Below are positions 12,615 to 16,175 of a DNA stretch of 64,000 nt, in pieces. The stretch is from the NCBI GenBank assembly GCA_903876795.1, contig CAIRBK010000097.1, positions 81,012 through 145,011 of the forward strand, read 5' to 3'. A model generated the notes under the pieces. It was not told the origin of the DNA. It saw nothing but the letters and a program-made list of their open reading frames with translations, and searched no databases. Position 1 is the stretch's first letter. Every line of letters begins with the position of its first letter. Position numbers and translations under genes: made by a program. The DNA comes from an uncultured Verrucomicrobiota bacterium (GTDB lineage: Bacteria; Verrucomicrobiota; Verrucomicrobiia; Opitutales; Opitutaceae).

Positions 12615-14150
12615 TCAGCCCGCTTTCGTTTCCACCTGCGGTCGCGGGAAGAGGATGGCGGTCGCGGCGACCTTCGAACCGGTGAGGCGCGAGCCCCAGA
12701 CCAGTTCGTCGCTCCACGGTAAGCCGGCGGTGTAGCCGAGCACGCCGTGGATCTTGGCGGTGGTCTCCGGCATGACGGCCGGCAACAGCGACACGCCCAG
12801 ACGCAGCGCCTCTGACATGGTGGCAAGCGAGGTCTTGAGCAGCGCCTGATCCTTCGGCTCGGACGATTTGCCGAGTTTCCACGGCGCGCGGGTTTCGATG
12901 TAGGCGTTGGTCGCGGTGATGAACGCAAAGGCGCGCTCCAGCGCGATGTGGAACTGGAAACCTTCGTGCAACGCGATCCCCTCGTCGCGGGTCTTGACCC
13001 AAAGCGCCTGCAAGTCCTGCTCGGGCTGCTCGGAGACCTCGGCGGCGGGCACGACGCCGTCGGCGAACCGGTTGGTCATGTTGAGCGTGCGGTTGACGAG
13101 GTTGCCCAGGTTGTTGGCGAGTTCGGCGTTGTAGCGGGCGAGAAACTGGTTGAGCGAAAAATCGCTGTCCTGGCCCACGCTCATCTCGCGGATCAGGAAG
13201 TAGCGCAGAGCGTCCACCCCGTATTTGTCGGCAAACTCGGCGGCATTGACGAAGTTGCCCGTGCTCTTGGACATCTTGCTGCCGTTGATCGACCACCAGC
13301 CGTGGGCGAGGAGCGATTTCGGCGTCTGGATGCCGGCAGCCTTGAGCATGATGGGCCAGTAAACGGCGTGCGGTGGCACGAGGATGTCCTTGCCGATGAC
13401 GTGGAAATCGGCGGGCCAGAACTCGGGTTTATCCACCACGGCGGTGTAGTAGTTCACCAGCGCGTCGAACCACACGTAGGTCACAAAGTTTTCGTCGAAA
13501 GGCAGCGTGATGCCCCACTCGAGACGATCCTTCGGACGCGAGATGCACAGGTCGTTGAGCGGCTCGGAGAGGAACTCGAGGACCTGTTTTTGGCGGTAGC
13601 GAGGGAAGACGAAATTCTCGTTGGTTTTGAGGAAATCGACCAGCCAGTCCTGATACTGGCGCAGTTTGAAGAAGTAGTTCGACTCGGTGATCTCGGTGAC
13701 CTCGCCAAAGATCTCGGGCCAGGATCCGTCGGGGTTGCGGTCCTTGTCTTGGAGGAACTGCTCCTGGCGGGTGGAGTAGAAACCCTTGTATTCAGCCTTG
13801 TAGATTTCACCTTTGTCGAACAGCTGCTGAAGGATCTGGCGGACGACCTTTTTGTGGCGCTCCTCGGTGGTGCGGATGAAGTCGTTGTTGGAGATGTTGA
13901 GCTTTGTACAGAGCGCGCGGAACTCCGCCGACACCTCGTCGCAAAACTGCTGGGGAGGGATGCCGCGTTTTTTGGCGCTTTGCTGGACCTTTTGTCCGTG
14001 CTCGTCCACGCCGGTGAGGAAGTAAACGTTGTCACCCATCAGACGGCGGAATCGGGCGATAACGTCCGTCAGCACCTTTTCATAGGCATGGCCCAGGTGC
14101 GGAGAACCGTTCACGTAGTCGATGGCGGTCGTGATGTAGAAGTTCTTCAT
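12615..14150 (-). CDS. metG: Methionyl-tRNA synthetase
   Basis: The 511-residue class I synthetase has the HIGH-type motif HLGH at residues 18-21 and KMSKS at 292-296. TGVDEHGQKV and the anticodon-binding helical domain after about residue 340 are also present. The connective region lacks the paired CxxC zinc ligands of the E. coli type. It also ends without the Trbp111-like C-terminal dimerisation domain, so it belongs to the short, zinc-poor class. I start it at the ATG at 14150. The frame is open for 36 more codons, but those are low-complexity and the catalytic N-terminus MKNFYITTAIDY fits as the true start. The long upstream region is rich in inverted repeats and may carry its control. 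Confidence 0.96.
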   Translation of the reverse strand: MKNFYITTAIDYVNGSPHLGHAYEKVLTDVIARFRRLMGDNVYFLTGVDEHGQKVQQSAKKRGIPPQQFCDEVSAEFRALCTKLNISNNDFIRTTEERHKKVVRQILQQLFDKGEIYKAEYKGFYSTRQEQFLQDKDRNPDGSWPEIFGEVTEITESNYFFKLRQYQDWLVDFLKTNENFVFPRYRQKQVLEFLSEPLNDLCISRPKDRLEWGITLPFDENFVTYVWFDALVNYYTAVVDKPEFWPADFHVIGKDILVPPHAVYWPIMLKAAGIQTPKSLLAHGWWSINGSKMSKSTGNFVNAAEFADKYGVDALRYFLIREMSVGQDSDFSLNQFLARYNAELANNLGNLVNRTLNMTNRFADGVVPAAEVSEQPEQDLQALWVKTRDEGIALHEGFQFHIALERAFAFITATNAYIETRAPWKLGKSSEPKDQALLKTSLATMSEALRLGVSLLPAVMPETTAKIHGVLGYTAGLPWSDELVWGSRLTGSKVAATAILFPRPQVETKAG

Positions 14151-14480
14151 GTGTGGAGGGTGAAACAGAACTCGCCCCCCGCCAAATGTCGAAGACATTG
14201 CGGGGTCTTCCCGCCCGCACTTTCCCCACCCGGTCAAACCGCCCTCCCCTGCCCTCATGCCGGCAGCAGCGAGCCGGCAACAACTAACACAATGGGTTAG
14301 TTGTTGCCCGGGGAGGCGCGCGGCAGATTGCTCGGCTCAATGCCGAAGAGCGCAACCCGGCCCAGTGGAGCGGTAGACAGGGCTCCGCCGATAGGATCAA
14401 GAGCGCGGGCAACGACAAAGAGGAGCCAACCGCAGTTCACCCTTGCGAGCAATCTCGGGGCACCGGCACACTAGGCGGCG
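14151..14480. promoter_or_regulatory. Divergent intergenic region with overlapping hairpins
   Basis: This 330-bp gap between divergent metG and the ABC permease holds several strong inverted repeats. A 12-bp hairpin with a 2-nt bulge lies at 14177-14205. A 7-bp stem at 14258-14264/14273-14279 shares bases with a perfect 13-bp stem at 14276-14288/14296-14308, so those two cannot form together. A 10-bp inverted repeat bounds 14325-14455. None is followed by a T tract. Both promoters must lie here, but I could not assign -35 and -10 boxes. I found no match to a riboswitch class I know. Confidence 0.55.
14325..14455. repeat. 131-bp segment bounded by a perfect 10-bp inverted repeat
   Basis: AGATTGCTCG (14325-14334) and CGAGCAATCT (14446-14455) enclose about 110 bp with smaller internal stems, such as GGAGC/GCTCC near 14370-14390. 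It sits 26 bp before the permease start. It could be a structured leader RNA for that gene or a small non-coding mobile or repeat element; the sequence alone does not decide. Confidence 0.45.
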
Positions 14481-16175
14481 ATGTCGCGTTCGCTTGCCCG
14501 CATCGTCTTCGCTTGCACGGCGCTGTTTTTCGCGGCGTTTTTTGTCTGGCCTATTCTCCAGATACTGAAGGGCGGGCTTGTCGATGCCGACGGCCGTCCA
14601 ACCCTCGCCTACATAGGAGCATTACTCGCGGATCCGATCTATCTGGCGGGGATCGGCAACGCCTTCCTTCTTGCGTGCGCGACTACCCTGCTCGCGTTTG
14701 CCATCGCGCTGCCCCTCGCGTTCATCGGCGACCGGTATCTTTTCCCGGGCAAAACGCTGCTAGGCTCGCTGGTGCTGATTCCGATGATCCTGCCGCCGTT
14801 CGTCGGAGCCATCGGCATCAAACAGATATTCGGCCAATACGGCGCGCTCAACGCACTGTTTATCGAGCTCGGCCTGCGCCCGGCCGGCTGGACCCATGAC
14901 TGGTTCGCCGCCAGCCCGTTTTGGGGCATCGCCTGCGTGAACGCCTTTTCCCTATACCCGATCATCTACCTCAACGCGACCGCCGCCCTGGCCAACGTCG
15001 ATCCCGCCCTGGAGGAGGCCGCGGAAAACCTGGGTTGCACCGGTCTGCGGCGGTTTACCCGGATCACTCTGCCGCTCATCAAAAGCGGCCTTTTCGCGGG
15101 CGGCACCATCGTGTTCATTTGGTCGTTTACCGAACTCGGCGTGCCGCTCGTCTTCGATTATCCGCGAGTAATCGCCGTGCAGATTTTTCACGGCCTCAAG
15201 GACATGGGCGGCAGTCCGGCGCCGTATGCACTGGTCGCCATCATGCTGGCGAGCACAACGCTCCTCTACGCGATCGGGAAGGGACTCTTTGGCCGCCAGA
15301 CGTACGCCATGATGGCCAAGGCCACCAGCTCGGGCGGGGCGCGCCCCCTACCCCGCACGCGGGCGTGGCTGTGTACGGCGGCGTTTGGCGGCGTGACGTT
15401 TCTGGCCGTGCTGCCGCACCTGGGCGTCGTGCTGGTGGCGTTTGCCGGCGACTGGTATGGCAGCGTGTTCCCGCAAAGCCTGACATTGACCAATTTCGAA
15501 CTCGCACTGGGCCACAGCCTGACGGTGCCGGCCATCTCCAACTCCCTCAAATTCGCCAGCCTGTCCACGATCATCGATGTGGTGCTGGGCGTCGCCATCG
15601 CCTATGTGGTCGTGCGGTCAAAGGTCGCCGGACGCCAGGTGCTCGATTTTCTGGCGATGCTTCCGCTGGCGGTTCCAGGCCTGGTGCTGGCCTTCGGTTA
15701 TCTCGCGATGAGTCGTGAGGGGAAATTCTTCGCATTCCTCGATCCGGTCGAAAACCCGGCCGCGCTGCTGGTGATCGCCTACTCGGTGCGTCGCCTCCCT
15801 TATGTGGTGCGCTCTGCCGTGGCCGGCTTTCAGCAGACAAGCGAGACCCTGGAGGAAGCCGCGCAGAACCTCGGTTGCCCGCCGCTCAAATCGGTCATCC
15901 GCGTGACGCTGCCGCTGATCACCGCCAACCTGATCGCGGGCGGACTGATGGCGTTTGCCTTTGCGATGCTCGAGGTCAGCGACTCGTTGATCCTCGCCCA
16001 GAAAATGGCCTTCTATCCGATCACCAAGGCCATTTTGGAACTCTTCCAACTGCTCGGCGACGGCAAGTTCATCGCGAGCGCACTCGGCGTGTGGGCTATG
16101 GTGTTCCTGGGAATCACCATCGTGGGCATGAGCCTGATTCTCGGGAAAAAACTCGGGGCGATCTTCAGGGTTTAA
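14481..16175 (+). CDS. Iron(III)-type ABC transporter permease, two fused domains
   Basis: The 564-residue membrane protein has about twelve hydrophobic segments and two BPD_transp_1 domains. Each carries an EAA loop that contacts the ATPase: [15 protein letters not shown] (around 178-192) and [15 protein letters not shown] (around 455-470). This duplicated layout and the EEAA-NLG signature are typical of FbpB/AfuB/ThiP-type permeases for ferric iron, thiamine or phosphonates. No substrate-binding protein or ATPase gene is next to it, as purH converges from downstream, so its partners are elsewhere. It starts with ATG at 14481. The inverted-repeat region upstream may control it. Confidence 0.88.

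Follow-up and report, generated by a model that had tools for sequence, protein, structure and literature searches.

A hairpin between metG and an orphan permease gene is probably a copy of a REP-like palindrome dispersed in Opitutus-group genomes

The 330-bp spacer that separates metG from a permease gene (14151-14480 of the window, the whole 64,000-nucleotide stretch of Opitutaceae DNA analysed here) is dense in inverted repeats, raising the question of whether these repeats constitute a regulatory RNA or have another origin. The initial annotation counted at least four strong stems and considered a leader RNA for metG, a leader for the permease or a small repeat element. The features of the locus are listed below; the borders between the upstream stretches and the unalignable segment are approximate.

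12615-14150, minus strand: metG, methionyl-tRNA synthetase (Pfam PF09334, E 2e-103), with a start (MKNFYITT) kept in relatives
14151-14206, minus strand: metG-proximal upstream stretch that aligns with relatives, probably the native metG 5' region
14207-14412, no strand assigned: segment that cannot be aligned with the compared relatives, in place of metal-transport genes
14258-14279, no strand assigned: 7-bp stem overlapping the hairpin, absent from the other palindrome copies listed and with no sign of belonging to the repeat
14276-14308, plus strand: dispersed palindrome with a 13-bp stem, a 7-nt loop ACAATGG (14289-14295) and the 27-nt family core at 14279-14305
14325-14455, no strand assigned: 131-bp segment with 10-bp inverted repeat ends that chance explains, the right arm lying in permease upstream DNA and being unconserved there
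14413-14480, plus strand: permease-proximal upstream stretch, partly conserved in relatives, probably the native permease 5' region
14481-16175, plus strand: ABC transporter inner-membrane permease (Pfam PF00528), by synteny the end of a metal-transport cluster in relatives

All the repeats named in the initial annotation are present in the sequence. The 7-bp stem (14258-14264/14273-14279) and the 13-bp stem (14276-14288/14296-14308, given as 16 nt with 94% complementarity in the repeat listing) share bases 14276-14279 as described, and the 10-bp repeat (14325-14334/14446-14455) does bound 131 bp, although its distance to the permease ATG at 14481 is 25 bases and not 26. As to their strength, the 13-bp stem alone exceeds chance expectation: a perfect inverted repeat of at least 13 bp arose in none of 300 dinucleotide shuffles of the spacer region, whereas a 10-bp inverted repeat arose in 18 of 300 whole-region shuffles (14 of 300 once the hairpin was taken out). 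Of 37 other intergenic regions 230-430 bp long, sampled from the same genome, nine have a perfect repeat of at least 10 bp. A further stem near metG, AATGTC-gaa-GACATT, is unpaired in six aligned relatives, which carry AAAATC or AAAGTC there. The predicted RNA fold of the 330 nt is unremarkable on the plus strand (z -1.34, 12 of 100 shuffles as good) and moderate on the minus strand (z -2.12, 1 of 100), and we found it unconvincing as evidence for a structured RNA. The 91 nt around the 13-bp hairpin fold unusually well (z -3.57, 0 of 200 shuffles as good).

A search with the 330-base spacer against the genome containing the window (hereafter G000; 3.57 Mb, 103 contigs) gave 50 matches, almost all of which fall within query positions 120-173, corresponding to the hairpin. 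A covariance model (R1) built on 50 palindrome copies yielded 75 matches over both strands of G000; tallied by hand, these represent 44 places at E<=0.05. For 42 of the 44, E is below 1e-8, and two of the places (C30 and C32, both close to contig ends) are identical in sequence. With some 44 near-identical, mostly intergenic copies, the hairpin looks like a small spreading repeat rather than a switch for either neighbouring gene, and we put at roughly 0.75 the probability that the hairpin at 14276-14308 belongs to a family of REP-like palindromes, about 33-45 bp long, with separate amplification in several species of the Opitutus group. The guess of a small repeat element was correct, with the 13-bp hairpin and not the 131-bp segment as the element.

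That the 131-bp segment itself is a MITE bounded by the perfect 10-bp arms at 14325 and 14455 has next to no likelihood: used as a query, it found only short weak matches and no second copy in G000, its arms are of a length attainable by chance, and its right arm is DNA belonging to the permease upstream region. We rejected it as a mobile unit. MITEs typically carry terminal inverted repeats in common with an autonomous element and generate a target-site duplication. The palindrome has no terminal repeats around an internal segment, no parent insertion sequence came up in non-systematic searching, and no target duplication was seen in the diverged flanks of its empty sites, although it resembles bacterial MITEs (PMC10969869) in being short, dispersed and non-autonomous.

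The same dispersal bears on the proposal that the spacer encodes an RNA leader, attenuator or riboswitch controlling metG or the permease. The good fold of the 91-nt stretch and the mutual exclusivity of the two stems are compatible with such a device, but many scattered copies, the outcome said beforehand to favour a repeat element, are what the palindrome proved to have, and they occur in both orientations beside unrelated genes. Rfam returned nothing relevant on either strand, with just two chance-level matches up to E 10 in window positions 13000-15500 and, at seven loci, only a tRNA elsewhere in L029. No T-run directly follows a stem in 14100-14520, as an intrinsic terminator would require, and the palindrome model detected no clear copy at 19 metG or permease loci of relatives (one weak match, L073, E 0.43). 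We consider this explanation extremely improbable.

The palindrome has a narrow distribution. Among 13 congeners, R1 located it at 22 places in G008, 8 in G012 and 5 in G002, and did not find it in nine. A sample of 150 genomes drawn from the family gave matches in five under strict filters, G002, G008 and G012 not being among the genomes shown. Of 252 family genomes, three contain the exact 15-nt apex, G000 at 29 sites and G012 and G047 at one site each; the reversed apex, serving as control, is absent from all 252. An exact 21-nt pattern was present in six stretches among genome contigs, five from one Opitutus MAG and one from Yersinia alsatica, the latter taken as chance; viral contigs contained no exact 21-nt match, and phage and plasmid collections no DNA match. 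Four other genera of the family contributed a single match each (G047, G137, G057 and G136), none of which was counted as a member. The G047 match (L139:2517-2563) is a lone hairpin with an ACAATGG loop and a different outer stem, inside a gene that by eye is rlmN-like; by eye, those in G137 and G057 look terminator-like, and that in G136 follows a tRNA-like sequence. Other dispersed-looking hairpins were noticed in the genus, of the type CCTTGAGC...GCTCAAGG at two G002 loci (L271, L277) and of the type GAGAACGAG in G004 (L261).

The palindrome is organised around a near-invariant 27-nt core, AACAACTAAC-ACAATGG-GTTAGTTGTT. Across 40 aligned G000 copies, five loop positions are invariant and the other two are conserved in 38-39 of 40. 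Outside the core, the columns show a stem of the CCCC-n-GG / CC-n-GGGG type, which differs among copies yet mostly remains paired. We quantified this pairing in 50 of the 63 palindrome hits, omitting nine in L049, two of L051, L056 and a duplicate in L043. Pairing holds in 81.1% of the cells of the 16-bp stem, compared to 76.2% in shuffled alignments and 24-47% in slid controls; double-changed cells number 56 versus 35.1, and the covariation score is 0.191 versus 0.115, with none of 500 shuffles as high for any of the three. Two of the five measures are not clearly above the shuffles: further pair types, and stem pairs with a double change (8 versus 7.6, no difference). The clearest covarying pair adjoins the core on its outside, with double changes in 20 of 50 copies. 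Covariation of the outer stem could also reflect a selected function.

Species differ in the form of their copies. The inner stem has C-G in G008 copies where G000 has T-A, and three G012 copies have in common a changed loop, CCAATAG, the remaining G012 copies being of other forms; on these sequence comparisons, the species-specific forms look like the products of separate copying bursts. G000 also contains four head-to-head pairs, 44-55 bp apart and mostly of a diverged subtype with GGTAG or GGTGG arms (L030:2951/3006, L033:2943/2998, L035:2953/3006 and L041:3007/3051), in which the copies have more mismatches than most single ones. One G008 locus, L049, holds nine copies, most of them in a tandem array (L049:2531-3104) in which a two-palindrome unit of roughly 160 bp recurs.

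The genomic setting of the copies was derived from a home-made codon-usage gene caller, so that distances and orientations are approximate. In G000, copies occupy 34 intergenic regions, after dropping one copy inside a called gene and two beside contig ends. These regions are divergent in 17 cases, tandem in 15 and convergent in 2, compared to 30, 84 and 22, respectively, among 136 copy-free control regions of 80-700 bp sampled from about 400 kb on four contigs. The divergent excess (17/34 versus 30/136) is significant (Fisher p 0.002) and unchanged at three score cut-offs; the convergent depletion is not (p 0.17; 0.11-0.20 over the three cut-offs). In tandem settings, the loop has the same orientation as the gene in 11 cases and the opposite in 6. 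The nearest start codon lies 40-145 bp from most copies.

This promoter-side position, together with the over-representation of divergent regions, would also be expected of a functional DNA element, such as the operator of a dimeric regulator or an insulator between promoters, whose use would account for its many copies. In all four positive species (G000, G008, G002 and G012) a copy precedes a deoxyhypusine synthase-like gene (Pfam PF01916), and in G000 and G008 a small HTH gene is closely flanked by the palindrome upstream and downstream; both observations argue in the same direction. Against such a role, the neighbouring genes are unrelated: 16 of 20 copy-adjacent proteins score above the curated cut-off of Pfam families with diverse functions, and the neighbours include fumarase, peroxiredoxin, methionine sulfoxide reductase, RecD2, RecQ, NIF3 and inositol monophosphatase. 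Protein binding would not require a complementary outer stem, nine of 13 congeners have no copy, and at the deoxyhypusine synthase-like locus itself the copy in G000 stands about 37 nt out of register with those of the other species. Given also the empty sites ahead of orthologous genes described below, we regard an operator or insulator as unlikely.

Two copies are absent from orthologous positions. The spacer containing the L034 copy measures 221 bp, compared to 155 bp in its G011 orthologue, with both flanks conserved, and that of the copy at L029:4181 measures 208 bp, compared to about 126-169 bp without the hairpin in all 10 relatives in which both flanking genes could be placed (G006 and G008 could not). 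The flanks of both empty sites are too diverged for any target duplication to be recognised. The first L027 copy is absent from three compared relatives, whose spacers are too diverged for alignment, and a scan for empty sites across 29% of G011 produced just one clean pair. Several copies are found at the same position in more than one species (two to four), a pattern that points to age or use more than to pure mobility. At the deoxyhypusine synthase-like locus, the hairpin is absent from five other aligned relatives, and its loop is reversed in G002 and G008. Empty sites and shared sites together imply that the palindrome seems to be mobile over evolutionary time, with some copies being old.

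Reversed loops at common loci are also what a tyrosine recombinase acting on crossover sites, and thereby generating invertible promoters, might leave behind. The palindrome has a suitable layout of 10-13-bp arms around a 7-bp asymmetric spacer, presumably akin to that of lox- or dif-like sites; the spacer scarcely varies within G000, three G012 copies share a changed one, and inverted pairs exist (for instance L027:4692/5075). Neither locus-specific complementary outer stems nor single isolated copies would be expected of such sites, and we hold this reading to be very improbable.

Under the preferred reading of a REP-like palindrome, the element would spread by copying and insertion through its hairpin form, either single-stranded or cruciform; a putative trans-acting enzyme would recognise the loop and inner stem, and the palindrome would be best tolerated in promoter-side spacers. 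The palindrome model found no copy in the flanks examined at 20 genus loci with Y1 transposase matches (of 26 such matches), and G012 has palindrome copies with no Y1 match. Spread into promoter-side spacers might proceed free of RAYTs, with a different sort of protein recognising the palindrome. One such protein could be the 137-aa HTH protein encoded beside dusB in G000 (L031:8740-9250) and G008 (L049:2056-3104), where the palindrome lies 13-16 nt upstream of the start codon and again just downstream of the stop; we rate this proposal as quite doubtful. The protein has weak HTH matches only, with no plasmid or viral relative and no convincing PDB relative. A distant relative of this protein (34% over 101 aa) is encoded at L018:787-1083 in G000, 1.9 kb from another palindrome copy.

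The closest known kind of element is found in the REP literature, as far as the relevant parts of PMC3733652, PMC8266576, PMC12306157 and PMC3116915 describe it. REPs in the broad sense outlined in PMC12306157 are extragenic, palindromic and short, with a common consensus and multiple copies, and the palindrome, a short stem-loop with a consensus, in 34 extragenic regions and at 44 places, conforms to that description. It resembles the GTAG/CGTC REPs, as PMC3733652 characterises them in part, in being short, palindromic, mostly intergenic and of high copy number, with some intragenic copies, subfamilies with compensated stem changes, head-to-head dimers, clusters and an uneven spread among species. 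Unlike them, it has no adjacent Y1 transposase that we could find and no GTAG/CGTC tag: no tetranucleotide is conserved within 30 nt on either side in 40 copies, where the information beside the core is largely confined to the outer-stem columns. Its stem of 10-16 bp exceeds the 6-9 bp of most GTAG families, and it is over-represented between divergent genes, whereas REPs are reported mostly between unidirectional and convergent genes (both in the same parts of PMC3733652). The comparison by description includes the families GTAG-17, -19 and -20 reported there for Opitutus terrae. With REPINs, going by portions of PMC3116915, it shares inverted pairs and spread within a genome. The inverted doublet is not its main and best-conserved unit, however: pairs are a minority (four in G000, for about 44 places), singles are better conserved, and no linked RAYT was found. 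The text passages covered in the literature searched contained no description of the palindrome sequence.

We compared gene calls at this locus in seven relatives (G011, G004, G001, G002, G009, G012 and G010), in all of which the upstream side of metG adjoins genes of a ZnuA/ABC-3 metal-transport cluster. In the three whose far end is in view (G011, G004 and G001), the "orphan" permease has its orthologue as the last gene of the cluster; the stretches from the other four stop short of this point. In G011, for which cluster members were checked against Pfam, the cluster comprises a ZnuA-type binding protein, a PF13557 protein, an ABC ATPase, two ABC-3 permeases and the permease orthologue; no ZnuA gene was called in the G001 cluster. 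The cluster stretches of relatives (L133, L134, L135 and L144) can be set against window positions 14150-14481; in G002, metG and the cluster are separated by a DruA-domain/DDE transposase-like gene (L136:2526-3863). In G000, the genes that separate metG and the permease in relatives are missing from this place, and they were not found in 692 kb of the genome, the permease itself and general ABC ATPase similarities aside. About 56 bp beside metG and 68 bp beside the permease can be aligned with relatives, and the hairpin-containing middle cannot. From this synteny, the permease is apparently the remnant of a lost metal-transport cluster, orphaned because the intervening genes were lost, and the palindrome would sit in the scar of that loss.

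An apparent riboswitch candidate thereby becomes a dispersed repeat, which calls for caution with structure-rich spacers in the Opitutus group, and the lost metal-transport cluster accounts for the "orphan" permease. If real as described, the palindrome would be REP-like but with no conserved tag, unusually biased to the promoter side and with no transposase found in linkage, which would make it well suited to studying what mobilises untagged REPs.
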